The notes under the pieces were generated by a model, which saw nothing but the letters and a program-made list of their open reading frames with translations, was not told where the DNA came from and ran no database searches. Shown here in pieces: positions 1,134-64,000 of a DNA stretch of 64,000 nt. The position numbers and the translations under genes were made by a program. Each line of letters begins with the position of its first letter. Positions within the stretch are counted from its first letter, which is position 1. The DNA comes from Pontibacter coccineus (lineage in GTDB: Bacteria; Bacteroidota; Bacteroidia; Cytophagales; Hymenobacteraceae): the NCBI RefSeq assembly GCF_030546575.1, contig NZ_JAUOTN010000006.1:124001-188000 (forward strand), read 5' to 3'.

Positions 1134-2285
1134 TTAGTCGACGATAGTGCGGGGAATGTTCATCGGGAGTCTCGTCAGCAGTTCATAGTTTAGTTGCGTG
1201 CTCAGTTCGGCGAAGGAGGCTACGGTGATATGCTCATTGCCCTGTTTGCCAAGCAGCACCACCTCGTCTTTGAGTGCCACACCCGGTATACCTGTCACGT
1301 CTACCATCAGCACATTCATATTGACGATGCCCACCACCGGTGCTTTGTGCGACCTGATCAGCACCTGGCCCTGGTTGCTCAGGCTACGGCTATACCCCCA
1401 GGCGTAACCTACAGGTATAGCAGCGACCAGCATGTCGCAGCCAGCCTGAAAGCTTTTGCCATACCCTATAAATTCACCTGCCTTTACAAGCTTCAGGCTC
1501 ATCACGTGGCTTTTCCAGTTGATCAGCCGCTTCAAAGGATCTGCGCGATCGGTGCTTGCGCCCGTATAGCGCTGGTAAATCTCCGGGCTTGGCCAGAAGC
1601 CGTACTGCATGATTCCCACCCGTACCATATCCAGGTGTGTTTCAGGATACGCCATAACGGCTGCCGAGCAGGCCGTGTGCAGCGTCTTGATCTTGAGTCC
1701 CTTTTGCCGGAGAAAGCGTACGGCTTGGTGGTACTGCTCTAATTGCTCCGTTACCCGATCATGGTTTTCGCTGCTCTCGGCACCTGCATAATGCGTGGAA
1801 ACACCCACTACCTCAAATGCATCAGGTTGCTTCAGGATCATGTCAGCAGCTCGTTCTATTTCTTTGGTGTCGAGACCGATGCGGTTCATACCTGTCTCCA
1901 GATCAAGATGGATCCGGGCGGGCTTTTGTAAAGAGCGCGCAGCATTTGCCGCTTGCTCCAACCGATCGATCGAGAAAACATAGAACTCAATATCGTTAGT
2001 AATGGCCCATTTCAGTTCCTGTTCATCAATGTAGCCCATGACCATGATGGTGACCTTCTGTGGCAGCACCTGGTGCAGGCGGTAGGCTTCATCGGCACTG
2101 AAAACCGAGAAATGATCCACCCCACAGGTATAGGCCAGCTGCCCGAACTCCTCTATGCCATGCCCATAAGCGTTCCCTTTGATCACTGAAGAAAAACGGG
2201 TACCCGGTCTGAGCTGCGCTTTAATAAAGCGAATGTTATGTACTAAGGCTGAACGGCTTATTTCGATAGAGGAACTGTAAAACAT
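1134..2285 (-). CDS. alr: Alanine racemase
   Basis: PLP-dependent interconversion of L- and D-alanine, supplying D-Ala for peptidoglycan. The 383 residues match the usual family length. The PLP lysine lies in VIKGNAYGHG (Lys36), and a GYxxGY-type motif (VGYAWGYS) in the C-terminal half corresponds to the region of the second catalytic Tyr. The MNRIGL substrate-pocket motif is also present. In many Bacteroidota the racemase is fused behind MurF; this copy stands alone. It starts 7 bp after the M20 amidohydrolase stop, so both probably sit on one transcript, and a link to processing of N-acylated amino acids or wall peptides is possible but unproven. Confidence 0.93.
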   Translation of the reverse strand: MFYSSSIEISRSALVHNIRFIKAQLRPGTRFSSVIKGNAYGHGIEEFGQLAYTCGVDHFSVFSADEAYRLHQVLPQKVTIMVMGYIDEQELKWAITNDIEFYVFSIDRLEQAANAARSLQKPARIHLDLETGMNRIGLDTKEIERAADMILKQPDAFEVVGVSTHYAGAESSENHDRVTEQLEQYHQAVRFLRQKGLKIKTLHTACSAAVMAYPETHLDMVRVGIMQYGFWPSPEIYQRYTGASTDRADPLKRLINWKSHVMSLKLVKAGEFIGYGKSFQAGCDMLVAAIPVGYAWGYSRSLSNQGQVLIRSHKAPVVGIVNMNVLMVDVTGIPGVALKDEVVLLGKQGNEHITVASFAELSTQLNYELLTRLPMNIPRTIVD

Positions 2286-2292
2286 GAAATGG

Positions 2293-3480
2293 CTAAGGAT
2301 TTAGAATGGATTCCGCGATGCGATAGAACAAGGCGGCACCCACAGGTATAAGTTCGTCAGGAAAGTCATAATCGGCATGGTGTAACTGGGGTTGGTTTGT
2401 ACCGGATCCTAGTCCAAACAGAGCGCCGCTATACCTGTTGGTTAAATGTCCGAAATCTTCTGACCAGCGTACCGGCTGTGCGGCCTGCTTTATATCCATA
2501 CGCAGATACTGCGCCGCCTGCTCTATGCACTCCACCGCTTCTGCACTGTTGCGTGTAGCAGGAAACTCTTCCAACCATTCAAAATCATACCTTAATCCGT
2601 ACTTGAGCGAAACCAGCTTAACAGCTTCAAGGGCAAGCGATTTCAACTGGTTCAGATCTTCCTGCTCAAAAGCCCGGAGTGTGGCCATCACCATCGCAAA
2701 TCCCGGATTGGTTCCAAAAGCAACTTCCCCTAAACGGGCATGCACGACCGTGAGCAAGGTCAGGTCCTGAAAGCGTTGCTGATCCCGTACCAACGCATTA
2801 AAGGCCTGTATCAGTTCGCTCATACCTTCGCCTGGGTTCACCCCATTTTCAGGCTCTGCCGCATGCGACTCTTTTCCATATAGCTTTACTTGAAGCCCCA
2901 CTGAAGCCGCGGCAAATATCTCAGGGCGCACCAGTACCTGACCCATCAGTAAGCCCGGCATGTTATGCAGCGCAAAGACATGCTCAATCGCTATTTTCTG
3001 GAAGGCCGGTGTATGGAGTACCGCCCAGGCGCCGGCGCCGGTTTCCTCTGCGGGCTGAAACAGCAATACCACACGGCCTTTCGCCAACGGGTGATGGTGC
3101 AGCATGCTGGCGAGCCCGGCTAAAGTAGCCATGTGTCCGTCGTGCCCACACTTATGACTGACACCTTTTTGCAGGGAGGTATAGGGCAGCTCGTTTTGCT
3201 CAACAATTGGGAGGGCATCCAACTCTGCACGGAACAGTACGGTTGGCCCGGCACTAGATTCTTTTCCATGGAAGATAGCCGCGAAGCCGGTGCCGCCTAA
3301 CGCTGATACTATTTCATCAGGCTGATAACGCTGCAAAAAATTTTGAAGGGTATGACTTGTTTCATACTCCAGCCCGGAGAGTTCGGGATGCCGGTGCAAA
3401 TGGTGGCGCAACGCGATGATCTCTTCCAGATCAGGTATAGAAACGGAGGAAAGGGTAGGGGACATAGGGTGCATACGCAT
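2293..3480 (-). CDS. M20-family metal-dependent amidohydrolase
   Basis: A 395-residue peptidase M20 protein of the IAA-amino-acid / N-acyl-amino-acid amidohydrolase type (AbgA/HipO/CarboxypeptidaseSS1 group). Metal ligands are visible in CGHDGHM, in the following PAEETGAGA motif and in the ALHNMPG motif. The DALPI and HRHPEL signatures are present near the N-terminus. No signal peptide is seen, so it is probably cytoplasmic and releases an amino acid from an N-acylated or N-acetylated substrate. Met codons at residues 1, 3 and 6 are all possible starts. It is the first gene of a tight pair with alr. Confidence 0.85.
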   Translation of the reverse strand: MRMHPMSPTLSSVSIPDLEEIIALRHHLHRHPELSGLEYETSHTLQNFLQRYQPDEIVSALGGTGFAAIFHGKESSAGPTVLFRAELDALPIVEQNELPYTSLQKGVSHKCGHDGHMATLAGLASMLHHHPLAKGRVVLLFQPAEETGAGAWAVLHTPAFQKIAIEHVFALHNMPGLLMGQVLVRPEIFAAASVGLQVKLYGKESHAAEPENGVNPGEGMSELIQAFNALVRDQQRFQDLTLLTVVHARLGEVAFGTNPGFAMVMATLRAFEQEDLNQLKSLALEAVKLVSLKYGLRYDFEWLEEFPATRNSAEAVECIEQAAQYLRMDIKQAAQPVRWSEDFGHLTNRYSGALFGLGSGTNQPQLHHADYDFPDELIPVGAALFYRIAESILNP

Positions 3481-3567: not shown

Positions 3568-3588
3568 CAATTTATAAGTAGAAGTTAA

Positions 3589-6500: not shown

Positions 6501-7551
6501 CGGCAGGAATTTCCAAATTGCCCTGCAGGTGCTCGTTGTGCATCTCCAGGTATACCCCTTGTTTGTCTATAATAAACATAAGGTCAGGTATGGCATCCAG
6601 AATAGCCCTGATTTTGGCTTCGCTGTTCCGTATCTCCTCCTGAGCGCGATGCAGATCGGTGATGTTGAGTCCATGCCCGATGATCAGCCTTACTTCACCC
6701 TGCTCGTCCAGCACCGGATTCAGTTTGCGGATATGGTAATTTTCGTTGCCCTGCTTGTCGACCAGCCTTTCCTCAAACGCCACCTGGCGGCGCTCATGCA
6801 AAGCCCTCAGCAGGTGCTTGCCTCGGCTTTCGATGCGGTGCAGCGGCACATTGCGGTAAGCGCAGTACTCCTCATTTGTTTTGTTGATGATCCACTCCCG
6901 CAGGTGGGGGGCCGACACGGCAATCGGGTTCACGAAAATGTATCGCAGCCTGCTGTCGTAAACGGCCACGTCGGAGGGAAGATTATTCAGGATGGCTTCG
7001 TAGAACTCCTTCTGCTCGGCAAGCTCCTGGTTTTTCTGATGCAGCCTGGTGATGTCTTCGGCTGACCCGATAATCTGACTTACTTTGCCATCGGCATTAC
7101 GCCTGTAAACGGACTCTCGGCAGAATAGGACTCTGCTGGAGCCATCACTGGCCCGCACACTGTACGTAATTTCGCGTACTTCGCCATCCAGGGCACTGAG
7201 CATACCAGAGGAATGCTGCAGCAAAAGCGGCTTGTCCTCGTCATCCACAACGGACATGAAGAAGTGCCCATCCATTGCATCCAACTCCTGCTGCGAAAAC
7301 CCAAGGATAGTCTTTATGCAGTTGTTAAGGTAGATGCTTTTGTTTTGGTCCAGGTCATAGATGTAGATGATGCTCGGCACCATGTGCATGACGTTTAGCA
7401 CCAGCTCCGCCGTTGTATCAGACTGATTTGTACGGAGTAGCTGTAGCTCACAGGCAAATGAATCGGCCTTTACTTCGGCTTCCTGCCGTGCTTTTCTTTC
7501 TTTTTCGAGCTCCCGTTGCAGTGCCTGCAGCTCGTATGGAGTTTCCATCAT
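3589..7551 (-). CDS. Hybrid sensor histidine kinase, six PAS domains, receiver and HPt
   Basis: A soluble multi-sensor phosphorelay protein of about 1320 residues with no transmembrane segment. In order it shows a short N-terminal coiled coil, six consecutive PAS/PAC modules (about 45-800), HisKA with [11 protein letters not shown] (phospho-His823), HATPase_c ([10 protein letters not shown]), a receiver with LMDIQMPE (phospho-Asp1113), and an HPt domain with AHKVKS (His1262). A complete His-Asp-His relay in one chain implies a separate output regulator. The open frame extends to 7623, but the leader before MMETPYELQ looks unlike coding sequence, so I place the start at 7551 (or 7548). It is divergent from a second PAS kinase, and a sigma-54 regulator lies 3 kb away. 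The ligand is unknown. Confidence 0.9.
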
Positions 7552-8035: not shown

Positions 8036-10228
8036 ATGAAATTCGCCCGCCTGAAGGAAAGATTTATCAGTTCGATCATGGATAACAGCGCAGAGTTGTT
8101 TTCTGTGATCGATGCCTCTGGCAACTACCAGTTTGTCGGCGGCTCTATTCGGAACCAGCTGGGCTACCACCCCGATGAGTTGGTCTCACGATCGGCGTTT
8201 GAGTACGTACACCCGGAAGACAGGACTTTGATTGAGGCGGCTATTGGGAGCGCACTCTTCAGAAGAACAACCCACCTGCCTAATTTTCGCTTCAGGCACC
8301 AGAACGGAAGCTGGCGCTGGCTGCAGTGCCGCATTACCAACATGGCAGATAACCCGGAGGTGAGAGGGTATATCACCAATTCCATTGACATAACAGAGCG
8401 GGTAGAAGTGGAGGGGCATCAGGTGCGTTGCCAGGCACACTACGAGTCGCTGTTCCACAATCACCCGGATGCGGTATTCGAACTGGACCGCGGTGGCTTT
8501 TTCACACTCTTCAATAAAAACTTCCCAAAGCTGACAGGCTATGCTCCGGAAGAGATTAAAGGAGCCCATTTCCGTGAGTTGGTGCTGGAAAAAGACCTCC
8601 CGATCGCCATGAATACTTTTATAAGAGCGCTGGAGGGAAGCCCCCACCAGGTGGAGCTGTCTTTTGTAAAACCCGACGGGGAGGCGGTATACCTGACCAT
8701 AGCCATTGTACCGGTGGTGTTAGGAAACGACATTGTGAAGATTCAAGGTATAGCCCGCGACATCACGCTGCAGAAAAATTTAGAACGCTATGCGGATGCG
8801 CAAGCCAGGCAACTGCACCAGATCATGGAGCGTTTACCCCAGTCTTTTTACTCGCTCGACCGGGAGTGGCGCTATACCTATGTCAACAACTTTTACTGCC
8901 GGTACCTGGGCGTTTCTAAAAAAGAGTTGCTTGGCAAGAATATCTGGCACATGTTTCCGGGAGCGGTGAACACCGATTTTTACAAAACCTGCCTGCAGGT
9001 GGCACAGACAGGTATACCGGCCACCGCGGAAGCAAAGTCCCTTTACCAAAACGACACCACCATCCATTTGCAGATATACCCGACCGGCGAAGATATCTCT
9101 GTCCATTTTGTAGACATCACGGAAAAGAAAAAGGAGCAGGACCAGCTTGAAAAACTGTCCCTGGTTGCCAGCAAGACAAACACCTGTATCCTGATACAAA
9201 ACAAGCTGGGGCAGATTGAATGGGTGAACGAAGCCTTTGAAAACGTGACAGGCTATACCTTGTGCGAGGTGGCACTCCGGAATCCGACGGAGTTGCTGAC
9301 AGGGAAGGAGACCGACCCGAAGACAATGAACAGGATCCGGAAACGCGTCGCCGCCGGCAAGCCGTTCAGGGGTGAGGTACTCAATTACACGAAGGATGGC
9401 CGAGAGATCTGGTTTTACCTGGAGATCACCCCCGTCCATGCAGAGAACGGAGAACTCGTTAAGTTCATCTCGATCCGGACCGACATTACACAGCGAAAGG
9501 CCAGGGAACAAGAACTGGTAGAAGCGACCCGCGAACTATTCCGCCAAAACCACGACCTGCAGCACTTCAGCTATATGGTTTCGCACAACCTGCGGGCGCC
9601 GGCTGCCAACATCATGGGCCTCTCGAGCCTGATGACCCGGGTCGATAAAAAGGATGCGATGTATGATCAACTCGTACAGAAGATCAAACTATCAGCGCAC
9701 AACCTCGACACGGTTATTCGCGACATGAACCATGTCCTCTCCGTGCGCGAACAGCATGAGGACCTGCAACGCGAGGAGGTATACCTGGCAAAGGTGGTGG
9801 AAGAAGCCATCGCCGTGATGGACTACAAACTCAACCGCCAGGAATGTCGTCTCCATATTGCGGTAGCCCCAGAAATCGTGCTGTGTTCCAACAAAGCATA
9901 CCTGCTGGAAATATTCAAAAACCTGATCTCAAATGCCGTTAAGTTCAAACAGAAGGACAAGCCACTAGTGCTTAACATTGTCGCCAGTAAGGGAAAAAGA
10001 ACCATAACGATCAAGGTAAGCGATAATGGCATAGGCATGGACATGCAACGTGTGGGGGAAGACCTGTTCAAAATATACAAGAGATTTCATGTAGGCTACC
10101 AAGGCAGGGGCATCGGACTATTTCTGGTCAAAACCTACCTCGACATACTCAAGGGAAAGATCAGTGTGACATCAGAACCAGATAAGGGCACCAGTTTTAA
10201 GATTCAGTTTGAAGTCGGGGCCCGGTAA
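8036..10228 (+). CDS. PAS-domain sensor histidine kinase (four PAS)
   Basis: A 730-residue soluble kinase. Four PAS/PAC modules (about 10-125, 130-250, 258-370, 375-490) lead to a HisKA domain with MVSHNLRAPA (phospho-His517) and an HATPase_c domain with N box NLISNAVKFK, G1 DNGIGMD and G2 GRGIGLFLVK. No receiver, HPt or membrane segment is present, so it should phosphorylate a separate regulator. The fourth PAS resembles the LOV fold but lacks the flavin-binding Cys motif NCRFLQ, so light sensing is not supported. ATG 8036 begins directly with the first PAS helix. The divergent hybrid kinase and the sigma-54 regulator at 10575 are natural partners by position only. Confidence 0.9.
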   Translation: MKFARLKERFISSIMDNSAELFSVIDASGNYQFVGGSIRNQLGYHPDELVSRSAFEYVHPEDRTLIEAAIGSALFRRTTHLPNFRFRHQNGSWRWLQCRITNMADNPEVRGYITNSIDITERVEVEGHQVRCQAHYESLFHNHPDAVFELDRGGFFTLFNKNFPKLTGYAPEEIKGAHFRELVLEKDLPIAMNTFIRALEGSPHQVELSFVKPDGEAVYLTIAIVPVVLGNDIVKIQGIARDITLQKNLERYADAQARQLHQIMERLPQSFYSLDREWRYTYVNNFYCRYLGVSKKELLGKNIWHMFPGAVNTDFYKTCLQVAQTGIPATAEAKSLYQNDTTIHLQIYPTGEDISVHFVDITEKKKEQDQLEKLSLVASKTNTCILIQNKLGQIEWVNEAFENVTGYTLCEVALRNPTELLTGKETDPKTMNRIRKRVAAGKPFRGEVLNYTKDGREIWFYLEITPVHAENGELVKFISIRTDITQRKAREQELVEATRELFRQNHDLQHFSYMVSHNLRAPAANIMGLSSLMTRVDKKDAMYDQLVQKIKLSAHNLDTVIRDMNHVLSVREQHEDLQREEVYLAKVVEEAIAVMDYKLNRQECRLHIAVAPEIVLCSNKAYLLEIFKNLISNAVKFKQKDKPLVLNIVASKGKRTITIKVSDNGIGMDMQRVGEDLFKIYKRFHVGYQGRGIGLFLVKTYLDILKGKISVTSEPDKGTSFKIQFEVGAR

Positions 10229-23148: not shown

Positions 23149-23183
23149 AAAAAGGCTGCTCTCTACTAAGGGCAGCCTTTTCT
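23149..23183. terminator. Bidirectional terminator between SusC-like and aminotransferase genes
   Basis: AAAAGGCTGC pairs with GCAGCCTTTT across a short loop. It is placed between two convergent stops, with A- and T-tracts on the respective sides. Confidence 0.85.
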
Positions 23184-24147: not shown

Positions 24148-25269
24148 TCACCGAATCAAAGCAAAGCGTTTACCTGGCATTGCCTTTACCATCCCTTTAA
24201 ACTCCAGCGCTAACAATATCGAGGCCAACTGACTAACGGGCACCTGTGCTTTCCAGCCCAGGTTGTCCATTTGCTCTTCGCCGGACTGAATCAGCACCTG
24301 CAGCACCTGCATTTCTTCGGGTGTGAACTCAGCCGGGTCGAGGGCAGGTATAGCGGTGGCACGTTTGGAGGCCAGTTTGTCCTCCACATCCCAGTTCAGT
24401 AGCTCGATCAGGTCCTGTGTGGAGGTGAGCACGGCGGCTTTGTGAGATTTGATCAGCCAGTTGGTACCCTCCGACATAGGGGAGTTGATATTGCCGGGCA
24501 CGGCCATCACCTCCTTGTCATAACTGTGGGCAATGTCGGCGGTGATCAGGGTGCCGCTCTTAAAAGCCGCTTCCACCACAATCGTGCAGTCCGACATACC
24601 GGCGATAATGCGATTACGTGCCGGAAAGCGGGGCGCGTCGGGTTTCGTGCCAAAGGTGTTTTCGGTGATCACACCGCCTTGCTCGAGCATTTTCTCAGCG
24701 TACTTCTTGTGCACACCCGGGTAGATCGTGTCAGGTCCGGAGGCCATCACGCCAATGGTCGGCAATCCGGCCTGCAAAGCGGCACGGTGCGCGGCAATGT
24801 CGATTCCATAGGCCAGTCCACTGACGATCATCACATTGTAGGGCTTAAGCTCCTCCACGATCCGTTCGGTTACGGATTGTCCATAACTGGTTGGTTTACG
24901 TGTACCTACTATGCTGACGATACGGCGATGGTTTAAGTCCGTGTTGCCCCGGAAGTAGAGAAGGGGCGGAGCGTCAGGCAACTGCTTGAGCCGGTTTGGA
25001 TACCTGGACGAGGTATAGAAAAGAAGCTCCACACTTTTATCCGAAGCTTTCTTCAGCACATCATCCGCTTCTAACAAGGCCTGACGACCGTTGTCGCGAA
25101 TGCTTTTCGCCACTCTTTCGCCCACACCCGGCACTTTCATCAGCTTAGGCACAGGCGCCTCAAACACGGCTTTAGCAGAGCCGCAATAGCTCACCAGCAA
25201 CTTCGTCAGCTGATCGCCAACGTGGGGCAGAAATGAAAGGGCTACTTCAAACTGAGCTTCGTGTGACAT
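24148..25269 (-). CDS. dprA: DNA-processing protein DprA
   Basis: Loads RecA onto incoming single-stranded DNA during natural transformation. The 373 residues show an N-terminal helix-hairpin-helix region (MKVPGVGERVAKSI, about 45-60), the Rossmann-like DprA core with SIVGTRKPTSYG, VSGLAYGIDIAAHRAAL, FPARNRIIAG and the SGTLITADIAH motif, and a C-terminal winged-helix-like domain (about 310-373). It follows the MerR gene on the same strand (18 bp), so the two may be one transcript. Its presence is compatible with transformation ability but does not prove it, since dprA is widespread. An AIP tripeptide in its linker is encoded by the iterated word. Confidence 0.93.
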   Translation of the reverse strand: MSHEAQFEVALSFLPHVGDQLTKLLVSYCGSAKAVFEAPVPKLMKVPGVGERVAKSIRDNGRQALLEADDVLKKASDKSVELLFYTSSRYPNRLKQLPDAPPLLYFRGNTDLNHRRIVSIVGTRKPTSYGQSVTERIVEELKPYNVMIVSGLAYGIDIAAHRAALQAGLPTIGVMASGPDTIYPGVHKKYAEKMLEQGGVITENTFGTKPDAPRFPARNRIIAGMSDCTIVVEAAFKSGTLITADIAHSYDKEVMAVPGNINSPMSEGTNWLIKSHKAAVLTSTQDLIELLNWDVEDKLASKRATAIPALDPAEFTPEEMQVLQVLIQSGEEQMDNLGWKAQVPVSQLASILLALEFKGMVKAMPGKRFALIR

Positions 25270-25838: not shown

Positions 25839-28469
25839 ATGAACTCAGCTGAGATTAGACAAAAATTTCTTGATTTCTTTGCTTCACGGCAGCACCAGAT
25901 CGTGCCGTCGGCACCCCTCGTGGTAAAAGACGACCCCACCCTGATGTTTATCAACTCAGGTATGGCGCCCTTCAAAGATTACTTCCTGGGCAACAAACCG
26001 GCTCCGTCTAAGCGCATCGCCGACACCCAGAAATGTCTGCGCGTATCGGGCAAGCACAACGACCTGGAGGAAGTAGGCTATGACACCTACCACCACACCA
26101 TGTTCGAAATGCTGGGCAACTGGTCTTTTGGCGACTATTTCAAGAAAGAAGCCCTGGCCTGGTCCTGGGAGCTGTTGACAGAGGTATACCAGCTGCCGAA
26201 AGACAGGCTGTATGTGTCCGTGTTCCAGGGCGATGCGTCTGAGAACCTGCCGATGGATCAGGAAGCCTTTGACATCTGGAAGTCTATGATTGCGGAAGAC
26301 CGCATTCTGATGGGCAACAAGAAGGACAACTTCTGGGAGATGGGTGACACCGGCCCTTGTGGTCCGTGCTCGGAAATACACGTGGACTTGCGGACAGACG
26401 AAGAGCGTGCGCAGGTGGATGGCAAAACACTCGTGAATGCAGACCACCCACAGGTAGTGGAGATCTGGAACAACGTATTCATGGAGTTCAATCGCTTGGC
26501 GGATGGCTCACTGGTAAAACTCCCTGCCCAGCACGTCGATACCGGTATGGGCTTCGAGCGTTTGTGCATGGCCATTCAGGGCAAGCGCTCCAACTACGAC
26601 ACCGATGTGTTTCAGCCGCTGATTCAATTCATCGCCAAAGAAGCGGGGGTTGTGTATGGCGAGAACGAGCAGGTAGACATTGCCATCCGCGTCATGGCCG
26701 ACCACATCCGCGCCATCGCTTTTGCGATCTCGGACGGACAGCTGCCATCGAACAACAAGGCCGGCTATGTGATTCGTCGTATCCTGCGCCGTGCGGTTAG
26801 GTATAGCTTCACCTTCCTGGACTTCAAAAAGCCATTCCTCTACAAGCTAGCCGCCGTGCTGGCCGACCAGATGGAGAACGTATTCCCGGAGCTGAAGCAG
26901 CAACTGAGCTTCGTACAGCGCGTGATCGAGGAAGAGGAAAACGCTTTCTTAAGAACGCTCGAAAATGGTCTGAAGCGTCTAGACGCTTTAGAAGCCAAAT
27001 TCAAAGAGAACAACAATACCATCGACGGCAAAACCGCCTTCGAACTATACGATACCTTCGGCTTCCCGCTGGACCTGACTGCCCTGATTGCCCGTGAAAA
27101 AGGCCTGAAGGTAGACGAGGCTGGCTTTGGCGTAGAAATGGAGCAACAGAAGAACCGCTCCCGCAACGCTTCGGCACAGGAGCAGAGCGACTGGGTGACT
27201 ATTCAGCCAGATGTGGAGACAGAGTTTCTGGGCTACGAGCACGACGTGGCTGATTCGCACATTGTGCGCTACCGCCAGGTAAAGACAAAAGCGAAGACCG
27301 AGTACCACATCGTGCTGGATCGCACCCCGTTCTATGCTGAAAGCGGCGGACAGGTAGGCGACACCGGTTACCTGATCTCTGATTCGGAGCAAGTTGAGGT
27401 GCTGGACACGAAGAAAGAAAATGATCTGATCCTGCACATCACTTCTAAATTGCCAACAAACATCGAGGCAACTTTCAGAAGCGAAGTGGACTTTGAGCGC
27501 CGCAACCTGATCCGTAAGAACCACTCGGCTACGCACTTACTCCATGCCGCTTTAAGGAAAGTTTTAGGCGAACACGTGCAGCAGAAGGGCTCTCTGGTAA
27601 ACGAGAAAGTGCTTCGTTTCGACTTCTCGCATTTCTCTAAAGTTACAGACGAACAGCTGCGTGAAGTAGAAACCATTGTGAACGAGCGCGTGCGTCAGGC
27701 GATTCCTTTGGAAGAGCAGCGCAATGTGCCGATTGCCCAGGCAAAAGAAATGGGTGCCATGGCGCTGTTCGGTGAGAAATACGGTGAGTTTGTGCGCGTG
27801 ATCGCGTTCGACCGTGACCACTCCGTAGAGCTTTGCGGAGGTACACACGTGTACAACACAGGTGAGATCGGTTATTTCAAAATACTTTCTGAAAGCTCAG
27901 TAGCCGCTGGTGTGCGACGTATTGAAGCCACCACGGCAGCGTCGGCTGAAGAGTATATGCAACAGCAGCTCAACGAGCTGAATGCCGTACGCGAGGTGCT
28001 GGGCACGCACAGCAACATGTCAGGTGCCGTGCAAAAACTGCAGGAAGACAACAAAGCCCTTCAAAAGCAACTAGAGCAATTTGAGCTGAAGCAGCTGACC
28101 AGCCTGAAAGAAAGCCTGGTGCAGAAAGCCCAGTCCATCGACGGTGTCAACTTCGTAGCCGAGAAAGTAGACGTTTCAACGGCTGATTACCTGAAGAAAC
28201 TGGCTTTCGATATGCGTCAGGCAGTTGACAGTCTGGTGCTGGTGCTGGCTGCTGAAATCGACGGCAAGCCACAAATTGCGGTGATGCTGTCAGACAACCT
28301 GGTTGCCGACCGTAAGCTAAATGCCAGCCAGATGGTGCGTGAATTGGCGAAGGAGATCAAAGGCGGCGGCGGCGGACAGCCATTCTATGCCACAGCAGGT
28401 GGTAAAGAAGTTGCAGGTTTGCAGGCTGTGCCAGCAAAGGCAGCGGAGTTGGTAAAGAGCCTGTTGTAA
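25839..28469 (+). CDS. alaS: Alanyl-tRNA synthetase
   Basis: Charges tRNA-Ala. The 876 residues are the standard length. The class II catalytic core begins at FLDFFASRQH and includes the GDTGPCGPCSEIH block, the editing domain carries HSATHLLHAAL and CGGTHVYNTGEIG (zinc/editing motifs), and the C-Ala domain ends with the glycine-rich GGGGGQPFYATAGG segment. Two copies of the iterated word lie in 2.6 kb, a lower density than in less conserved genes. The small membrane-protein gene follows by 14 bp. Confidence 0.98.
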   Translation: MNSAEIRQKFLDFFASRQHQIVPSAPLVVKDDPTLMFINSGMAPFKDYFLGNKPAPSKRIADTQKCLRVSGKHNDLEEVGYDTYHHTMFEMLGNWSFGDYFKKEALAWSWELLTEVYQLPKDRLYVSVFQGDASENLPMDQEAFDIWKSMIAEDRILMGNKKDNFWEMGDTGPCGPCSEIHVDLRTDEERAQVDGKTLVNADHPQVVEIWNNVFMEFNRLADGSLVKLPAQHVDTGMGFERLCMAIQGKRSNYDTDVFQPLIQFIAKEAGVVYGENEQVDIAIRVMADHIRAIAFAISDGQLPSNNKAGYVIRRILRRAVRYSFTFLDFKKPFLYKLAAVLADQMENVFPELKQQLSFVQRVIEEEENAFLRTLENGLKRLDALEAKFKENNNTIDGKTAFELYDTFGFPLDLTALIAREKGLKVDEAGFGVEMEQQKNRSRNASAQEQSDWVTIQPDVETEFLGYEHDVADSHIVRYRQVKTKAKTEYHIVLDRTPFYAESGGQVGDTGYLISDSEQVEVLDTKKENDLILHITSKLPTNIEATFRSEVDFERRNLIRKNHSATHLLHAALRKVLGEHVQQKGSLVNEKVLRFDFSHFSKVTDEQLREVETIVNERVRQAIPLEEQRNVPIAQAKEMGAMALFGEKYGEFVRVIAFDRDHSVELCGGTHVYNTGEIGYFKILSESSVAAGVRRIEATTAASAEEYMQQQLNELNAVREVLGTHSNMSGAVQKLQEDNKALQKQLEQFELKQLTSLKESLVQKAQSIDGVNFVAEKVDVSTADYLKKLAFDMRQAVDSLVLVLAAEIDGKPQIAVMLSDNLVADRKLNASQMVRELAKEIKGGGGGQPFYATAGGKEVAGLQAVPAKAAELVKSLL

Positions 28470-33684: not shown

Positions 33685-33888
33685 TTCCCTCTGAATCTGT
33701 AAAATGTAAAAAAACAGGCTAAGCAGTTTCAGGTATAGGAATACCGCTATACCTTGTCTGAACTCCGCCTGAAAATAGTGTATGCGAAAATAAGCATACC
33801 TGCCCACAGTTACCTAACCGGATCGTAATTTAATCTTGCCTCCAACGGAATAACAGGTTGTAACCGTGCATTTGAGTGAAATCATGGT

Positions 33889-56240: not shown

Positions 56241-58811
56241 TTGTCTGACAACAAGCCTAATCCGGATAAACCAAAACTGAACATACCCTGGCTTCTTAAA
56301 ATGGCTTGGCGCGATACCCGTCGCAGCCGGGGTAGGCTGTTGCTGTTCCTGTCGTCCATCGTGCTGGGTATAGCCGCCCTGGTGGCCATCAACTCGTTTC
56401 GGGACAGTCTGCAGTTAGCCATCGACGAGAAAGCCCGAACCCTGATCGGAGCTGATCTGGTGGTGGGCATGAATAAAGAACCCGACTCGCTTTCCCTGGC
56501 CATCATCGACTCCGTGAGCACACTGGGCAAGCGGTCGGACGAGAACCGCATGATGTCGATGGTGTATTTTGTGAAAAGCAACGACACCCGACTGGTACAG
56601 GTGCGCGCGCTGGAAGGTGAGTTCCCTTACTTCGGAGCCATCGAGACGGAGCCGGTAGAGGCAAGCCGCAGTTTCCGGGAAGACAAACGTGCCCTCGTTG
56701 ATTATAATCTGATGCTGCAGTACGAAGCCCAGATCGGAGACTCGATCCGGGTCGGCGCTATGACATTTGCCATCGAAGGAGCGTTGCACCGTATACCTGG
56801 TCAGACAGCCATGACCGCGGCTGTGGCACCTGTGGTGTACATTCCCAGACAATACCTGCCCGAAACCGGTCTGATCCAGCGCGGCAGCCGGGTTTCTTAT
56901 TATTATTACTATGACCTGAACGAGGCCGTACAGCCCGATACGCTGGGCAATAAACTGGACCCACGCTTAGAAGAGCTTGGGATGTTCTACGACACAGTGG
57001 AAACGCGAAAAGCGAGCATGGGCCGCTCTTACGACGAACTGGCTCGCTTTCTGGCGCTCGTGGGCTTTGTGGCGCTGCTACTGGGGTGCGTGGGGGTAGC
57101 CAGTGCAGTGCACGTGTACATGCGTGACAAACTGGCGACCATCGGTATTTTGCGCTGTCTGGGTATGAGTGGTAAACAGGCCTTTTTGGTATACCTGTTC
57201 CAGGTAATGGGTATGGGATTAATAGGCGGGATCGCCGGCGCGGCACTGGGCAGTGTCGTGCAACTGATACTACCGGAGTTGTTCAAAACCTTCCTGCCTG
57301 TCAGTGTGGATGCCTACTTCTCCGTAAGAGCCGCGGCGCAGGGCGTGCTAATGGGTGTGGTGGTGTCGGTGCTCTTTGCGCTTTTGCCATTATTGAGCAT
57401 CCGGCAGGTGTCGCCGCTGATTACATTGCGAGCTACTATAGAGCACCTGACTAACCAGAAAGATCCGCTCCGCTGGGCGGTATACGGTTTGCTGCTGGGC
57501 TTTATTGTCGTCTTCTCACGCTGGCAAATGGGTACCTGGTGGCAGGCGCTCTATTTTACGGGCGGTGTCATCGCGGCCTTCCTGGTGCTGGCTTTGCTCG
57601 CCAAAGGCCTGTCGTGGACTGTCAAACGCTTCTTCCCAACTCACTGGGGCTACGTATGGCGCCAGGGACTGGCCAACCTCTACCGCCCAAACAACCAGAC
57701 CTTGTTGCTGATGGTATCGATCGGATTGGGAACAGCCCTGATCGGCACGCTCTTCATGGTGCAGCGTACCTTACTGAGCGAGGTATCGCTCTCCGGCACC
57801 GAGAACCAGCCTAACCTAGTGCTCTTCGACATCCAGAACAGCCAACGGGACCAGATAGCTGATTTAACCAAAGCGGAGGGACTGCCGATCCTGTATTTTG
57901 ACCCGATTGTGACGGTGAGGCTGGAACAGATCAATAACCTGACGCTGGCAGATGTGCGCAAAGACACGACCCTAGAGATCAGACCGCGGAACTTCACCAG
58001 GGAATACCGGGTAACCTACCGTGACCACCTCAGTGACTCTGAGAAAACAGAAGCCGGTGAGTGGAGCGAGGGGCAGTACAAAGCTGGCGGCAGGGTACCT
58101 GTGTCATTGGAAGAAGGCTATGCGGAACGCATCAAGGTGAAAGTGGGCGATTCCCTTATTTACAATGTACAGGGCGCGACTATACCTGCACGGGTAGCCC
58201 ACATACGCCGTGTGGACTGGAACCGGGTACAGACTAATTTCCAGATGCTTTTCCCGAAAGGCGTACTGGAAGAAGCACCGCAGTTCCATGTGCTAATGAC
58301 GCGCAGCGATAACGAGCAACAGGCCGCGCAATTCCAGCGACGCGTTGTGGAAGCTTTTCCGAACGTATCTGCCATAGGCCTAGACCTGATCCTGCGTACG
58401 CTGGAGGAAGTGGTCAGTCAAATCTCGTTTGTAATTCAGTTTATGGCGCTTTTCAGCATTTTCACTGGATTGCTGGTGCTGGTGGGCTCTGTCAATGTCA
58501 GCAAATTCCAGCGGGTGCAGGAGAGCGTGCTATTGCGCACCTTAGGCGCTAACAAGAAACAGATACTAGGTATAACGCTGATGGAGTACGCCATGTTGGG
58601 CATATTGGCTGCCGCTGTGGGCTGTGTGATCGCCTTTGGCGCTGCCTGGGCCTTGGCGGTTTTCAGTTTCGAAATGGAGTTTGTGCCCGTGCTATGGCCA
58701 CTGCTGGTTATATTCGTGGTAGTTACTTTGCTGACTGTGGCAGTAGGCCTGCTCAATAGCCGTGGTGTGCTGAACAGGCCGCCGTTGGAAGTTTTGCGAA
58801 GGGAGGCATAA
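56241..58811 (+). CDS. FtsX-like ABC permease (YbbP-type)
   Basis: An 856-residue inner-membrane protein from TTG 56241, after a TATACCT word. It has one N-terminal helix (LLFLSSIVLGIAALVAI), a large periplasmic region, an FtsX core of helices near 270-400, two more helices, a second periplasmic part and a second FtsX core near 735-845 ending NRPPLEVLRREA. This 10-helix duplicated layout is the YbbP/ predicted lysophospholipase L1-export-linked permease, distinct from 4-helix LolC/MacB. It is partnered with the ATPase upstream and, by synteny, the TesA-like enzyme. Confidence 0.9.
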   Translation: MSDNKPNPDKPKLNIPWLLKMAWRDTRRSRGRLLLFLSSIVLGIAALVAINSFRDSLQLAIDEKARTLIGADLVVGMNKEPDSLSLAIIDSVSTLGKRSDENRMMSMVYFVKSNDTRLVQVRALEGEFPYFGAIETEPVEASRSFREDKRALVDYNLMLQYEAQIGDSIRVGAMTFAIEGALHRIPGQTAMTAAVAPVVYIPRQYLPETGLIQRGSRVSYYYYYDLNEAVQPDTLGNKLDPRLEELGMFYDTVETRKASMGRSYDELARFLALVGFVALLLGCVGVASAVHVYMRDKLATIGILRCLGMSGKQAFLVYLFQVMGMGLIGGIAGAALGSVVQLILPELFKTFLPVSVDAYFSVRAAAQGVLMGVVVSVLFALLPLLSIRQVSPLITLRATIEHLTNQKDPLRWAVYGLLLGFIVVFSRWQMGTWWQALYFTGGVIAAFLVLALLAKGLSWTVKRFFPTHWGYVWRQGLANLYRPNNQTLLLMVSIGLGTALIGTLFMVQRTLLSEVSLSGTENQPNLVLFDIQNSQRDQIADLTKAEGLPILYFDPIVTVRLEQINNLTLADVRKDTTLEIRPRNFTREYRVTYRDHLSDSEKTEAGEWSEGQYKAGGRVPVSLEEGYAERIKVKVGDSLIYNVQGATIPARVAHIRRVDWNRVQTNFQMLFPKGVLEEAPQFHVLMTRSDNEQQAAQFQRRVVEAFPNVSAIGLDLILRTLEEVVSQISFVIQFMALFSIFTGLLVLVGSVNVSKFQRVQESVLLRTLGANKKQILGITLMEYAMLGILAAAVGCVIAFGAAWALAVFSFEMEFVPVLWPLLVIFVVVTLLTVAVGLLNSRGVLNRPPLEVLRREA

Positions 58812-59557
58812 TATTAAGTCAGTATACTATGTATAGTAAGTAGCACCATTGGACCCATTAGGTAATTTTCACCTGAAGTGCATAGTGCAGGTAAAAAGAT
58901 TTGATATTGATTTATCTTTTTTTCAGTTGCTAAGCCTTTAACAACTTTGCCAGTACTCCAACTATAAAATAGGGGAACCTTATTCATTCATTTATGCCTA
59001 TCTGACAGATAGGTAATAGATGATAATTTTAAGATAATTACCATATCTATTCTAGCTATAAAATTATATTCAAAGCTTGTTGTAATTGCTGCATTTTCGA
59101 ATCCAGATGCCAGCAGTATAGTTACAAAATTTCAATTTAGGCTGTCATACCTTTATTGATTGACTGGAGCCTGATCTGCTAATTTTGGAAATAGAACCAG
59201 TACAATCCTCCTAGATTTTCCTTTGATCAGGATATTAGGCCCTTTATAAATCTTTGATAAGTTCAAATTGCTAGCAAAACTAAGGCATCAAAGCAGACTT
59301 ATTTAACACCTTTAATAACATTCTCTCTGCTATAAAATTGGCAAAAAATTATCTTAAAATATTCTAAATAATAAACAAAAAAACAGACAATAAATTAAAC
59401 AAAAAACAAATAAAGAAGTACATAGTTATACTATACCATTATTAATTATAATTATTATTCCATATACAAGATATAACAGAGTACCCCTTTGATGTATTGT
59501 TCAATACATTCATTAACAATTATTCGAGCTTCTAATTCACTACATAAAATTAATATA
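58812..59557. other. AT-rich gene-free leader of the low-GC island
   Basis: About 745 bp with no credible gene. The sequence turns sharply AT-rich near 58850 and includes A/T tracts near 59340-59420. No AGGTATA-family word is present, although about one is expected at the window density. No transposase, tRNA or attachment repeat was seen. The end of this stretch must hold the promoter for the ATP-grasp gene. Confidence 0.5.
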
Positions 59558-60472
59558 ATGGATTTAGGCAAACTCAACACTTCGCTATACAATATAAAGA
59601 ATATCCTATACGATAATATTAAGGCTGTACAGGGAAAGCCTATTAAAGGTCATGGCGAATTATCAAGGAGAATAAAACAGCGGCATCGAACCTTTTGGGG
59701 GCAGCCAGATTCAGAAATTGTTAGAAATACTAAAATGAATGCAAGTGATCCTATTGAAAAATGGAAGGATGTAACTAACTGGCAGCGCAAACTCAGTAAT
59801 AAGTATAATGCGAGAGAGTTTGCTAAAAAGCATGGTTGCCGTGTGCCAGATCTTTATTGGAAAGGAAGAAATATTGAGGCGATAGACTTCTCCAAATTGC
59901 CTGAACAATTTGTAATCAGGCCAACTATTGGACACTCCTCAAACAATGTATTTCTAATGAATAAGAATTATAATCAAATGGATAATAAATTTTATTCGGC
60001 AGAAGAAATTTCTAAAGTTATGGAGGCTGCCCTTAATAAAGATGCACGCTTAGAATTTCTGATTGAAGAATTTGTAAGGGACGAACAGGGGAATTATGTA
60101 ATTCCTGTAAACTATAAGATACATACCTTTAATGGGGAAATTGCCGGAATAAATGTTTTAAATAAAGTAGGTCCCAGAAAAGGCACTATGAGAGCTTATG
60201 ACGAGAATTGGAATATGATAAATAACATAGCATGTGATTTACCTGTCGCTCCTTATCAAAAGCCCCCTAACTGCATAAAGGAGATTGTAACACATGCGAA
60301 AATTCTCAGCAAAGCTTACGAGATTTATGTAAGAGTAGACTTTTTCGCTACTGACAAAGGTGCAGTTTTTAATGAATTTACACCTACCCCATCTGTAGGA
60401 GATTATTTTACACCAGAGGCTGATAAAAAATTTATCAGCTATTGGGATAAATATTGCAAAGGCCTGATTTGA
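59558..60472 (+). CDS. ATP-grasp protein, TupA-like (peptide/amide ligase candidate)
   Basis: A protein of about 304 residues from ATG 59558; the longer frame from 59489 adds a leader with no family likeness. It shows ATP-grasp features: FVIRPTIGHSSNNV (a nucleotide-binding loop region), FLIEEFVRD, the YKIHTFNGEIAGI strand pair, and the C-terminal metal-site block YVRVDFFATDKGAVFNEFTPTP. This arrangement matches the TupA (teichuronopeptide) type, which joins amino acids or peptides to polysaccharide carboxylates. The gene is clearly AT-rich (about 30% GC in sampled lines). It is followed by the acyltransferase after 126 bp. Confidence 0.8.
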   Translation: MDLGKLNTSLYNIKNILYDNIKAVQGKPIKGHGELSRRIKQRHRTFWGQPDSEIVRNTKMNASDPIEKWKDVTNWQRKLSNKYNAREFAKKHGCRVPDLYWKGRNIEAIDFSKLPEQFVIRPTIGHSSNNVFLMNKNYNQMDNKFYSAEEISKVMEAALNKDARLEFLIEEFVRDEQGNYVIPVNYKIHTFNGEIAGINVLNKVGPRKGTMRAYDENWNMINNIACDLPVAPYQKPPNCIKEIVTHAKILSKAYEIYVRVDFFATDKGAVFNEFTPTPSVGDYFTPEADKKFISYWDKYCKGLI

Positions 60473-60598
60473 TTATTCTACATTAATATGCACGCTGCCA
60501 TTCTTATTAATTGATTGAATTGTATCAGTCTAGCTAACAAGAATCCAAGATGTTGTAATCTAATAATGAAGAACCATTAACCGAGTAACTTTTCCGGT

Positions 60599-62218
60599 AT
60601 GAATTTATACGAAGGAGAAGACGTATATCAGCTTTTCACGAAAGAAAAGTTTTTAAGTGATTGGGATTCACTTTACAATGCATGTCCATGGGCCACGGCT
60701 TTTCAATCAAAAGAGTTCACTACTACGTGGTATAATATTCATCATGAAAAAATAACACCCATTTTAATCTTATCTTATGAAGGAGATAAGCTGGCTGGAC
60801 TTTTTGCTTTAGTCAGAAAAAGAGGCCGCCAAAAGATTTATGGAGCGGGTATTTATGATACTGAATATCAAACATGGCTTTCAACGACTGAATATTCAGA
60901 CAAATTCATAGCCAACGCCCTTCAGGTACTGCATAATAGGTTTAAAAAGTTTGAAATTGAACTGAAGTACATTCCTAAAGAATCACCATTGAAATGGACA
61001 AACGAAAATCAGGACCTGAAATATCATTGTTCAATACGAGAACGCCTTCGGCCTTTAATACAAATCAATTCTGACATCATCCTTAGAAACCTAAAGAAGA
61101 AAAATAGGAAGGAGAAAATAAACAGATTGAAGCGCTTAGGCGAACTGAAATTTGAGAAAATAATCGATTTAGAGAATTTTATTTTAACATTCGATACCAT
61201 AGCTGTGCATTATGCATTTAGAAAAGCTTCCAAGTATAATCGGAGTTTGGACAAAATTGATAGCATCAGCAAATCGTTTTACGTTGAGCTGTTTAAGTTA
61301 AACTTACTACATGTATCAGTTCTAAAACTTAATGATGAAATAATAGCGTCGAATGTGGGGATAGCTGGAAGAGGATGGGTGTATCTAAAAGGAATGAACA
61401 CTTGGTCTCCCTTCTATGCGAAGTATTCACCAGGTATTATCCATTTGCTAATGCTTTGTCATCAACTAGGATCAGAAGGCTTTGATGCTTTTGATCTTAC
61501 GCCGGGGGATGATGCATATAAAGAAACTATTGCAACGACATTTGATAAAGTATATGAATTCAGGTACTACAGTCAGAAAAAATCTTATTTGAAAAACCTA
61601 ATAAGAAGGGAACTATACTTTACGATCCTAAGAAAATTCAATTCAAACCCTTTAGCTTTTGAGCTAGAATTAAACAAAAGAAAGGAGAAACTGGGAACTC
61701 TGTTAAAGTCTTTATATACACTTAGACTAGATACATTCAAGTCTATGCTTGACAGAGGTACAAAAGCAGCTATTAGCTCGGAAATGTATCGGCTTGTAAT
61801 ACATAATTATGATACAAATCTGAATACATTTAGAGTCAGCAAGAACAATTTAAAAGATTTATTAGCATATGAACAACAAGAGGGATTGACTAAATATGAG
61901 TTTCTTATGGGTGCTGTTAAAAATTATGAAAAAGGCAAACACAGCTACACTATTACTAATGAAAAAAAGCTAGTTTGCTGTGTCTGGAAAGACACTTGGG
62001 AGGGAAGCCCCAAGCTACCGGAGGGAGCAATTGTGTTGACAGATATTTACTGTCACCCACAACGTAAGAATAAAGAGGGTGAATTCATTATATCAGCTAT
62101 TGATAAAATTTCGAAGGAAGAGAAACAGAACGAAGTATACCTTTATACAGCAAAAGAAGGAATAGTAAGTTCGCTCAAATCTAGAAACAACATTGATCTA
62201 TCACAGTCAATTCCTTGA
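60599..62218 (+). CDS. Two-domain GNAT/FemAB-like acyltransferase
   Basis: A 539-residue cytoplasmic protein with two parts. Residues 30-345 are a BioF2/CelD-type acetyltransferase domain (WATAFQSKEFTTTWY near the start; hallmark FDLTPGDDAYKETIAT near 298-313). Residues about 400-535 look like a second GNAT-type fold, with LTDIYCHPQRKNKEGEFI (strand then acyl-CoA loop-like region). A helical, Lys-rich bridge joins them. FemAB/BioF2 proteins transfer acyl or aminoacyl groups to cell-surface precursors. Paired with a TupA-like ligase it suggests modification of a surface glycan or peptide, but no glycosyltransferase is near. AT-rich, and the iterated word occurs once, at its 3' end. Confidence 0.75.
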   Translation: MNLYEGEDVYQLFTKEKFLSDWDSLYNACPWATAFQSKEFTTTWYNIHHEKITPILILSYEGDKLAGLFALVRKRGRQKIYGAGIYDTEYQTWLSTTEYSDKFIANALQVLHNRFKKFEIELKYIPKESPLKWTNENQDLKYHCSIRERLRPLIQINSDIILRNLKKKNRKEKINRLKRLGELKFEKIIDLENFILTFDTIAVHYAFRKASKYNRSLDKIDSISKSFYVELFKLNLLHVSVLKLNDEIIASNVGIAGRGWVYLKGMNTWSPFYAKYSPGIIHLLMLCHQLGSEGFDAFDLTPGDDAYKETIATTFDKVYEFRYYSQKKSYLKNLIRRELYFTILRKFNSNPLAFELELNKRKEKLGTLLKSLYTLRLDTFKSMLDRGTKAAISSEMYRLVIHNYDTNLNTFRVSKNNLKDLLAYEQQEGLTKYEFLMGAVKNYEKGKHSYTITNEKKLVCCVWKDTWEGSPKLPEGAIVLTDIYCHPQRKNKEGEFIISAIDKISKEEKQNEVYLYTAKEGIVSSLKSRNNIDLSQSIP

Positions 62219-62750: not shown

Positions 62751-62840
62751 GGCTCAGATATTTTGATCTCTCTATTTAACCCCGATTAGGACAGAAACGT
62801 TACAGCGCAATCAGGTATAAGCCAGGTGCAATACCATCGG

Positions 62841-64000
62841 CTATACCTGTCGCAGCACTTTGGCCGCGATCTTCTCGGCGCAACGCTCCCCATCCATGGC
62901 AGCAGACACAATACCCCCTGCATAGCCGGCACCCTCTGCGCAAGGGTATAGGTTCTTGATCTGCACATGCTCCAATGTCTCGCGGTCACGCGGTATACGG
63001 ACAGGGGAGGAGGTGCGGCTTTCCACCCCGATGATCTGAGCGTAGTTACTCAGGTAACCGCGCATTTTATTGCCAAACGCCTTAAAACCTTCCCGCAGGC
63101 GGTAGGCCATGGCAGGTGAGAATAGCTCATTCATATCCACAGGCGTCAGGCCGGGCTGATAGGATGTCTCCAGCAAGGTACCGCCTGTCTTCTTTTGTGT
63201 AAAGTCGAGGAGGAGTTGAGCAGGGGCTTTTTGCGTGCCGCCGGCCATTTCACAGGCTTTTCGCTCCAGGGCTTCCTGCATGCGCAATCCGGCAAGCGGA
63301 CCGTACTTATCAAGTTCCATGTCCTCCAACTCAATGGCGACTACTATACCTGAGTTGGCGAACTTAGAGTCTCGGCGGCTTGGCGACATGCCATTCACCA
63401 CTACTTCGCCGGGAGCCGTAGCCGAGGGCACAATAAAGCCACCCGGGCACATGCAGAACGAGAAAATACCACGCTGTTTGTTGTCGTATACCGTCTGGTG
63501 CACCAGCGCATACGAAGAGGCCGGCAGCCAACAACCGCGGTCCTCACACTTGTACTGTATGCTGTCGATCAGTTTCTGCTGGTGCTCCACACGCACGCCC
63601 ATGGCAAAAGGCTTAGCCTCAATGGTAATGCCTTTGTGGTACAGTAACTCAAATATATCGCGGGCACTATGACCAGTGGCCAGGATCACGGCTTCCCCCA
63701 TGTATTCTTGTCCGTCCTGCGTCACGACACCTTTCATCTCGTCCTGCTCCAAGATAAAATCTGTGACACGCTTGTCAAACAGTACCTCACCGCCAGCTGC
63801 TTCTATACTTTCACGAATAGCAGAGATGATGCGGGGTAATTTGTTAGTGCCAATATGCGGATGGGCATCGAATAGGATGTCGCGGGTGGCGCCGTGCTGC
63901 ACAAAGATTTCGAGAATACGCTGCAGATCACCACGCTTTTTGGAGCGGGTATAGAGCTTGCCATCGGAGTAAGTACCGGCACCGCCTTCCCCAAAACAAT
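62841..64000 (-). CDS. FAD-dependent dehydrogenase / NAD(P)/FAD oxidoreductase (5' end outside window)
   Basis: The reverse-strand frame is open from 64000 to the TAG at 62841-62843, so about 386 C-terminal residues are seen and the N-terminal dinucleotide fold lies outside. Visible motifs are GEGGAGTYSDGKLYTR, the VILATGHSARDI strand near the second FAD contact, FCMCPGGFIVPS with possible redox Cys, and the C-terminal YPCAEGAGYAGGIVSAAMDG flavin-binding block. This is the COG2509 type of uncharacterised FAD-utilising dehydrogenases. The last codons read CAG GTA TAG, so the stop is part of the iterated word. Confidence 0.88.
   Translation of the reverse strand, partial: CFGEGGAGTYSDGKLYTRSKKRGDLQRILEIFVQHGATRDILFDAHPHIGTNKLPRIISAIRESIEAAGGEVLFDKRVTDFILEQDEMKGVVTQDGQEYMGEAVILATGHSARDIFELLYHKGITIEAKPFAMGVRVEHQQKLIDSIQYKCEDRGCWLPASSYALVHQTVYDNKQRGIFSFCMCPGGFIVPSATAPGEVVVNGMSPSRRDSKFANSGIVVAIELEDMELDKYGPLAGLRMQEALERKACEMAGGTQKAPAQLLLDFTQKKTGGTLLETSYQPGLTPVDMNELFSPAMAYRLREGFKAFGNKMRGYLSNYAQIIGVESRTSSPVRIPRDRETLEHVQIKNLYPCAEGAGYAGGIVSAAMDGERCAEKIAAKVLRQV

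Follow-up and report, generated by a model that had tools for sequence, protein, structure and literature searches.

Pasteurellaceae and Neisseriaceae use type IV pili for DNA uptake. The DNA uptake sequence (DUS) is found preferentially at gene ends, the uptake signal sequence (USS) of Haemophilus influenzae is dense and orientation-balanced, has flanking AT-rich segments and lies in a genome with competence genes, and known Chi sites are over-represented short non-palindromic words that are polar with replication. Uptake words are known from Pasteurellaceae and Neisseriaceae (PMC7811141, in excerpt). The DUS of Neisseriaceae occurs in thousands of copies, with variants a few bases apart that follow phylogeny around a constant core, and one documented genome carries two dialects in nearly equal numbers (PMC3630211, in excerpt). 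The highly iterated palindromes (HIP1 and alternate HIPs) of cyanobacteria are also very abundant, are replaced by other words in some relatives, and are tied to methyltransferases (PMC4390886, in excerpt). Here we analyze a short word, AGGTATA (TATACCT on the opposite strand), in a 64,000-nucleotide stretch of Pontibacter coccineus (contig NZ_JAUOTN010000006.1, positions 124,001 to 188,000; hereafter the window). AGGTATA is one dialect of a genus-wide word system.

The Pontibacter word resembles the DUS in its thousands of copies, in variants a few bases apart that follow phylogeny, in its constant core and in the occurrence of two-dialect genomes (G012 and G045). It differs in belonging to another phylum, in its length (7-8 bases, against 10 or more for the DUS), in nine species without a strong word, in the lack of a full-length type IV pilus ATPase match and probably of a ComP-like pilin receptor, and in that the DUS has an uptake role whereas the Pontibacter word is known from genomes alone, a difference that separates it from the USS as well. 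Like the USS it is dense and orientation-balanced in genomes with competence genes, but the sequence is unrelated and the flanks are nearly flat, without AT-rich segments. It shares with the HIPs a great abundance and the replacement by other words in some relatives, but HIPs are palindromic and the Pontibacter words mostly are not. Like Chi it is a short, non-palindromic, over-represented word in genomes with an AddB-type protein; unlike Chi it shows no clear strand polarity and has dialects inside one genus. Because of its density, mostly non-palindromic form, ordered dialects, respelling, two-dialect genomes and preference for gene ends, it matches the DUS dialects more closely than HIP1 or Chi. 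The word appears to work like a DUS, while membership in that class itself falls short on the pilus feature.

AGGTATA is over-represented throughout the P. coccineus genome

An exact count found 121 copies of AGGTATA/TATACCT in the window, 57 on the forward and 64 on the reverse strand, close to the roughly 117 copies in about equal orientations that a preliminary description of this DNA had counted by hand. By comparison, 100 dinucleotide shuffles of the window averaged 4.84 copies and never exceeded 13, and AGGTATA ranked first among all window 7-mers for over-representation by dinucleotide z-score. In its favored extended form the word reads cAGGTATA(G>C>A)(C>G); information outside the seven letters amounts to about one base before (C) and two after, and the logo of window copies is nearly flat beyond. 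CAGGTATAGC is present in 22 exact copies. The positions are as follows.

1287..63351, both strands: AGGTATA, 121 copies (match count against shuffles, logo)
Forward strand, AGGTATA starts, first half: 1413 2126 2344 3177 3433 6548 8746 9010 9777 11307 12235 12951 13174 15175 20125 20537 23045 23635 23812 24346 25011 26182 26799 30084 31611 32159 32210 32319 32396
Forward strand, AGGTATA starts, second half (57 in all): 32543 32992 33731 33930 34541 35478 35527 35598 36217 36319 36688 37284 37309 38202 38812 39130 42123 46445 46927 47774 50138 52418 52763 54174 54306 54629 58568 62813
Reverse strand, lowest coordinate of each copy, first half: 1287 2430 4627 5290 7812 8688 8873 9254 9780 10260 10527 10570 12365 12889 13561 14819 15426 15557 17638 18268 19412 23183 23257 23344 23530 25315 28535 28719 30087 31515 33613 33748
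Reverse strand, lowest coordinate of each copy, second half (64 in all): 34402 34730 34770 36836 37139 38032 40433 40600 42003 42032 42200 42315 44097 44528 47882 48527 49847 50113 51455 53421 54669 54812 55303 55317 55645 56235 56792 57190 58181 62136 62842 63345
9777..9786, no strand: perfect palindrome AGGTATACCT formed by two overlapping copies (match positions)
30084..30093, no strand: perfect palindrome AGGTATACCT formed by two overlapping copies (match positions)
33731..33754, no strand: inverted pair of copies, 17 bases start to start (match positions)
58575..62135, no strand: largest stretch of the window without the word (no match between 58568 and 62136)

The word-free stretch covers an open reading frame (ORF) at 59489-60472 and most of another at 60599-62218 (ATP-grasp-like and GNAT-like by eye), and is possibly a recent acquisition.

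The enrichment extends to the whole genome (4,655,665 bases), which contains 2183 forward and 2064 reverse copies of CAGGTATA, 4,247 in total. The reversed word occurs 22 + 22 times, a generous control that flatters the contrast, as CAGGTATA also tops it, more weakly, in the 38 Pontibacter genomes that do not belong to the AGG clade defined below (278-1,334 copies); a weak excess over the reversed word is found across the family (for example, 355 versus 54 in G050 and 66 versus 30 in G060). Measured against a dinucleotide expectation in 204 kb of the genome taken as four pieces, AGGTATA is enriched 24-fold (333 versus 14.0). Its strand split in these pieces is 57/64, 20/22, 3/6 and 86/75. Orientation is roughly even in the other dialects too, the largest imbalance among long stretches being 293/248 in 200 kb of G025.

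The sites are not confined to one kind of DNA. All six coding frames are used in the 204 kb (21, 26 and 60 sites on the same strand as the gene; 38, 44 and 40 on the opposite strand), and 104 of the 333 sites fall outside ORFs of at least 150 aa, as the preliminary description had claimed for coding DNA of either strand and intergenic DNA. With the same ORF threshold, three of the four pieces have 3.0-3.2 sites per kb outside ORFs and 1.2-1.8 inside; the fourth, with a SusC/SusD-like locus, has 0.45 sites per kb overall and none outside ORFs. When gaps between ORFs of at least 120 aa were sorted by orientation, density fell in the order convergent, tandem, divergent, coding in all four data sets (AGG, AAG, AAC and the Rhabdobacter word described below). 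In P. coccineus (G000) the values were 4.18, 3.25, 2.38 and 1.32 sites per kb, respectively; in Rhabdobacter the tandem and divergent densities were similar (3.51 and 3.47 per kb). The genome-wide count lies far above background and the word is not limited to codon pairs in coding frames, so the lineage-specific genomic word first proposed is real, with an abundance like that of the DUS or HIP1.

Among one-base variants of AGGTATA, those at position 1 and those with A at 2, C at 3 or G at 7 are over-represented. A Vsr-like or deamination-driven conversion of one precursor was rejected: conversion at a single position gives at most about fourfold enrichment, and precursors that differ at position 4 or 5 occur at about background frequency, apart from AGGTCTA, which goes against this (5 versus 16.4 expected). 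The word is not accounted for by composition or codon use, nor by Chi-type polarity or conversion at a single position.

Two AAG-dialect species have second contigs of 116 and 74 kb that we presume to be plasmids. Their first 20 kb hold 2 and 11 copies of AAGTATA; the alaS loci of the two genomes hold 32 and 35. The lower density in the SusC/SusD-like stretch and in these presumed plasmids concerns few cases, and one plasmid is only about threefold poorer.

Pontibacter species spell the word in different dialects

To compare relatives we surveyed 50 genomes of the genus, using 20 kb around alaS in 40 of them and 13-20 kb in nine others. The top word was sought separately in each alaS locus, and CAGGTATA, AAGTATAA and AACTATAG were counted genome-wide.

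25839..28469, forward strand: alaS, phylogenetic marker and anchor of orthologous loci (sequence)

The relatives split by dialect. CAGGTATA is present in 3,241-4,671 copies in 11 genomes, 2,225 in one and 278-1,334 in the other 38. The AGG dialect, AGGTATA(G) or AGGTATAG, is limited to one clade of 12 that includes P. coccineus. Twenty of the 50 species use the AAG dialect, AAGTATA(A) or AAGTATAA, and five the AAC dialect, AACTATA(G) or AACTATAG, while two genomes, G012 and G045, carry AAG and AAC words together. Further forms are ATATATA in G035 and a diffuse GGTATA in G041, and nine genomes (G008, G013, G016, G027, G029, G033, G036, G037 and G047) have no strong word; we refer to these as wordless. 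At the alaS loci, AGGTATA exceeds its dinucleotide expectation 32-fold in the 11 other AGG-clade members, 3.2-fold in AAG genomes, 0.8-fold in AAC genomes and 2.7-fold in the nine wordless species. Genome-wide counts follow the same lines. The 20 AAG genomes hold 2,246-7,030 copies of AAGTATAA and the AGG clade 276-453; AACTATAG reaches 6,288-8,208 in the five AAC genomes, 2,002 and 2,617 in the mixed genomes and 907 in one AAG genome (G049), staying below 500 in the remainder. The AAG and AAC words number 4,476 and 2,002 in G012, and 3,911 and 2,617 in G045. Common to the dialects is the core A-[AGT]-[GCA]-TATA. At position 8 the AGG and AAG dialects favor G or A rather than C, the base that would make a palindrome, and the AAC dialect is partly palindromic. 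We found no description of such a word in Bacteroidota among the matches listed in the open-licence PMC literature (titles and starts of abstracts).

Individual genomes add detail. G012 and G014 are sisters by AlaRS (support 98/87) with an opposite balance of words (AAG 4,476 and AAC 2,002 versus AAG 2,125 and AAC 6,288), and are the best pair for finding the reader of the word. In G035 (loci L144, L171 and L239) the ATATATA-type word has 90 copies in 60 kb at 52% GC, where 2.7 are expected, making it an AT-only dialect. Wordless genomes are mostly large (4.9-6.5 Mb, versus 3.8-5.6 Mb for word-bearing ones). One of them, G037 (loci L158 and L169), has AGGTATA at 4.0-fold (14 versus 3.5 in 40 kb) and 925 copies of CAGGTATA genome-wide versus 42 of the control, and perhaps carries a weak word.

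Dialects follow phylogeny and sites are partly respelled in place

We placed the dialects on an AlaRS tree of the 50 species and three outgroups, a single gene tree in which 21 of 50 inner branches are well supported. The AlaRS of the window shares 85-86% identity with those of P. silvestris and P. pamirensis. AGG genomes are monophyletic with support of 100/99, the AAC genomes share a single branch with the mixed ones (100/100), and the AAG genomes are paraphyletic. The wordless label requires four changes on this tree, three of them forced by well-supported branches. The pattern is consistent with AAGTATAA as the ancestral word, later respelled and several times lost; AAGTATAA is widespread and probably ancestral, and the wordless species may have lost the word.

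AAG and AGG sites are partly respelled in place. When the AGGTATA sites of the window were aligned in the 20 AAG genomes (255 site-by-genome cases, which here and below are not mutually independent), 53 read AAGTATA, 13 read AGGTATA, and every other one-base variant accounted for 6 or fewer. Counted as distinct sites, 10 of 35 had AAGTATA in at least one AAG genome, and any other one-base variant appeared at 3 or fewer. The 21% at word sites compares with a background of 3.3% for G-to-A at position 2 of sampled other 7-mers (620 of 19,007). In the reverse direction, AAGTATA sites of five AAG genomes aligned to the AGG clade (944 cases) read AGGTATA in 196 and AAGTATA in 109. Sites are also retained within dialects, in 53-68% of cases against a background identity of 20-30%; for the window sites within the AGG clade the figures are 269 of 416 cases (65%) and 27%. 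By comparison, AAGTATA sites aligned to wordless genomes kept AAGTATA in 91 of 673 cases, not above background.

Rhabdobacter carries a word of its own

Outside the genus, 18 genomes from five other genera of the family had at most 9 copies of AAGTATA, AGGTATA, AACTATA or AAGTACC per 20-kb sample. An order-wide sample of 390 genomes (19 Pontibacter and 371 others) was scored with the single degenerate pattern AAGTAYMW, which misses words not of the AAGTA type. Among the Pontibacter sampled, the 11 AAG or mixed genomes had the pattern at 3.8-6.8 times control, and the highest ratio outside the genus, from a table read by eye, was about 2.5 (G224). Among 80 named Bacteroidota loci, Rhabdobacter roseus (L028, L309-L318) stood out with its own word, ARGTACCY. 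AAGTACCT is present in 7,028 copies genome-wide versus 301 for the control, AAGTACC occurs 536 times in 223 kb versus 22.9 expected, and the logo reads A[AG]GTACC[TC]. Its orientations number 224/240 in a 200-kb stretch and 46/26 in a 22.7-kb locus. The ARGTA start common to Rhabdobacter and Pontibacter may be a coincidence. Other words over-represented in about 22.6 kb were AAAACCG in Larkinella rosea (L039; 64 copies), ACCTAGG in Solirubrum (L010; 24), TCCGGAA in Siphonobacter (L027; 35) and GCTGGCC in Hymenobacter sp. M29 (L012; 69), some of which may be lineage words too.

An uptake or self-DNA recognition signal is the favored explanation

Because of the dialects, the respelling in place, the absence of polarity and the preference for gene ends, we favor the idea that the word is an uptake or self-DNA recognition signal, with a probability of roughly 0.5. 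The strong enrichment, the two-dialect genomes, the retention of sites within the AGG clade, the matches to comEC in all 50 genomes and to dprA in all 49 other alaS loci of the genus and, in a small sample, the poorer presumed plasmids also speak for it. Uptake, repair or nucleoid binding, and methylation had all been listed as possible functions; that list is narrowed in favor of the first without being closed. On this view a genome-wide word would serve self-DNA recognition, with AGGTATA(G) as its dialect in the AGG clade. A word-binding protein would raise the odds of uptake, or of recombination once inside, for DNA that carries the word, so that word-bearing alleles would be passed on more often and the word would accumulate where coding and regulation allow. 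As the specificity of the reader drifted, sites would be respelled (AAGTATAA to AGGTATAG, partly in place) or grown anew (AACTATAG); if the reader were lost, the word would decay. DNA uptake or transformation would be the step under selection, and one specific protein would read the word.

A gene of the transformation pathway lies in the window close to alaS.

24148..25269, reverse strand: dprA, DNA processing protein of transformation (name by eye from sequence)

Several observations weigh against an uptake or self-DNA signal. The family of type IV pilus and type II secretion ATPases, PF00437, the one pilus family searched, had no full-length match in the 50 genomes. dprA was matched in the alaS loci of wordless species as well, and comEC is uninterrupted in all nine wordless genomes. 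Conversely, among word-bearing genomes comEC has one internal stop each in G020 and G040 and a short frame (561 aa) in G038, and the dprA match of G040 covers less than 70% of the length. No gene that tracks the word was found among PF00437, comEC, dprA, DUF5689 and PF12705 in the 50 genomes. Spacing, which is expected to be even for some uptake words, is clustered, with a coefficient of variation of 1.28. Both presumed plasmids may have arrived only recently, and one retains 11 copies. Respelling has its limits as well: AAG sites aligned in AAC genomes (487 cases) read AAGTATA in 169 and AACTATA in 21, and the ATATATA sites of G035 read AAGTATA in 1 of 172 cases in AAG genomes, so the AAC and G035 forms arose mostly at new sites, as little respelling of old sites is seen. 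At the alaS loci of wordless species AAGTATA is at 2.4-fold and AGGTATA at 2.7-fold. Finally, we know of no uptake experiment in Pontibacter.

The enrichments in wordless species bear on possible relics. In six wordless genomes AAGTATAA exceeds its reversed word 2.0-4.8 times (1,201/252 in G016, 509/138 in G047, 717/289 in G013, 762/286 in G027, 746/299 in G037 and 688/336 in G036), and in G008, G029 and G033 the ratio is 1.3-1.6. The excess in the six could be a relic of the word, a weak possibility, and it is not specific because AGGTATA is equally raised there.

We looked for the reader among proteins of transformation and recombination. Among the matches listed, PF00437 hits spanned at most 66 of 370 positions, and in three of the 50 genomes a hit barely passed the cut-off; for the majority of genomes, scoring covered 31 of up to 45 first-look candidates. 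Since no full-length match was found, a minor pilin, the receptor known for the DUS, probably cannot work here, and any reader would be something other than a type IV pilus system. comEC (PF03772) was matched in 50 of 50 genomes and its presence is uncorrelated with the word; with comEC and dprA present in wordless genomes, competence genes as such do not track it. Fast change, seen in ComEC (32 genomes) and DprA (49 of 50), does not single them out, as other genes of the locus have similar ratios. Close to dprA, a class IV aminotransferase-like ORF (by eye) at 23182-23997 is strikingly variable, with 54-75% identity between P. coccineus and AGG-clade members whose AlaRS are at least 95% identical. 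Competence in Riemerella requires a DUF5689 protein (PMC8459023, in excerpt). DUF5689 (PF18942) was found in 22 of 50 genomes, a distribution that does not fit the word. A short form (413-450 aa) is limited to 12 word-bearing genomes; we dropped it because it adjoins SusC/SusD-like genes (by eye) in the six neighborhoods fetched. A PF12705 protein of 967-1018 aa, identified as AddB by length and domain only, is present in all 50 genomes and so was set aside as a word-tracking gene. There is precedent in the phylum for a pilus-free route: Riemerella, a competent flavobacterium without recognizable pilus genes, uses ComEC, DprA, ComF and RecA, along with four proteins that lack homologs in known transformation machinery (PMC8459023, in excerpt).

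Alternative explanations

The most probable alternative, though we consider it unlikely, is a HIP1-like methylation word, in which a methyltransferase reads the whole word or just its core, mutations that create it are favored by a linked bias of repair or a linked function, and dialects track enzyme specificity. In cyanobacteria alternate HIP words accompany methyltransferases whose specificity matches them, and deviations by one base cluster at the ends of the word (PMC4390886, in excerpt), as they do here, where they are commonest at positions 1 and 7. HIPs are palindromic, however, and the Pontibacter words mostly are not, the AAC dialect being partly so. A repair bias should also affect all DNA in the cell, yet the two presumed plasmids, a small sample, are poorer in the word, and the ATATATA of G035, with neither C nor G, cannot be explained by cytosine methylation, although adenine methylation could account for it.

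It is improbable that the word is a Chi-like signal for recombination that the AddAB nuclease-helicase reads and that is selected for the repair of broken DNA. The AddB-type protein in every genome is what such a signal would call for, but wordless species keep it too, and the strand counts given above, which are split by strand and not by replication direction, show no clear polarity (293/248 at most). To our knowledge, dialects within one genus exceed anything known of Chi.

Similarly improbable, and if anything slightly more so, is a site bound by a chromosome protein, nucleoid-associated or other, with selection acting in cis on every single copy. The chromosome-wide spread, clustering and intergenic preference are as such a site would have them, but each change of dialect would need thousands of sites to be rewired, and a strong word is missing from nine species of the genus. 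What probability remains falls to the Chi-like and chromosome-protein roles or to something not thought of.

An artefact of base composition or codon-pair preference, suggested by the favored frame NNA GGT ATA (60 of 107 same-strand coding sites) and by the weak CAGGTATA excess across the family, is refuted by the use of six frames, by an intergenic density above that of coding DNA, by alaS-locus enrichment that goes by dialect, and by sister species that lack the enrichment or spell the word otherwise.

Implications

Taken broadly, the data may point to pilus-independent, sequence-specific self-DNA recognition in Bacteroidota through an entirely unknown receptor, with at least four dialects and repeated loss in one genus and a related word, with an ARGTA core, in Rhabdobacter, a tentative proposal that we place a little short of even odds. 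If it is true, sequence-specific self-DNA recognition has evolved more than once, by another machine, and replicate natural experiments are at hand for tracing how reader and word co-evolve. Because Pontibacter holds species of each dialect, mixtures and losses, the spread, switch and decay of the word, and its reader, are directly testable within a single genus.

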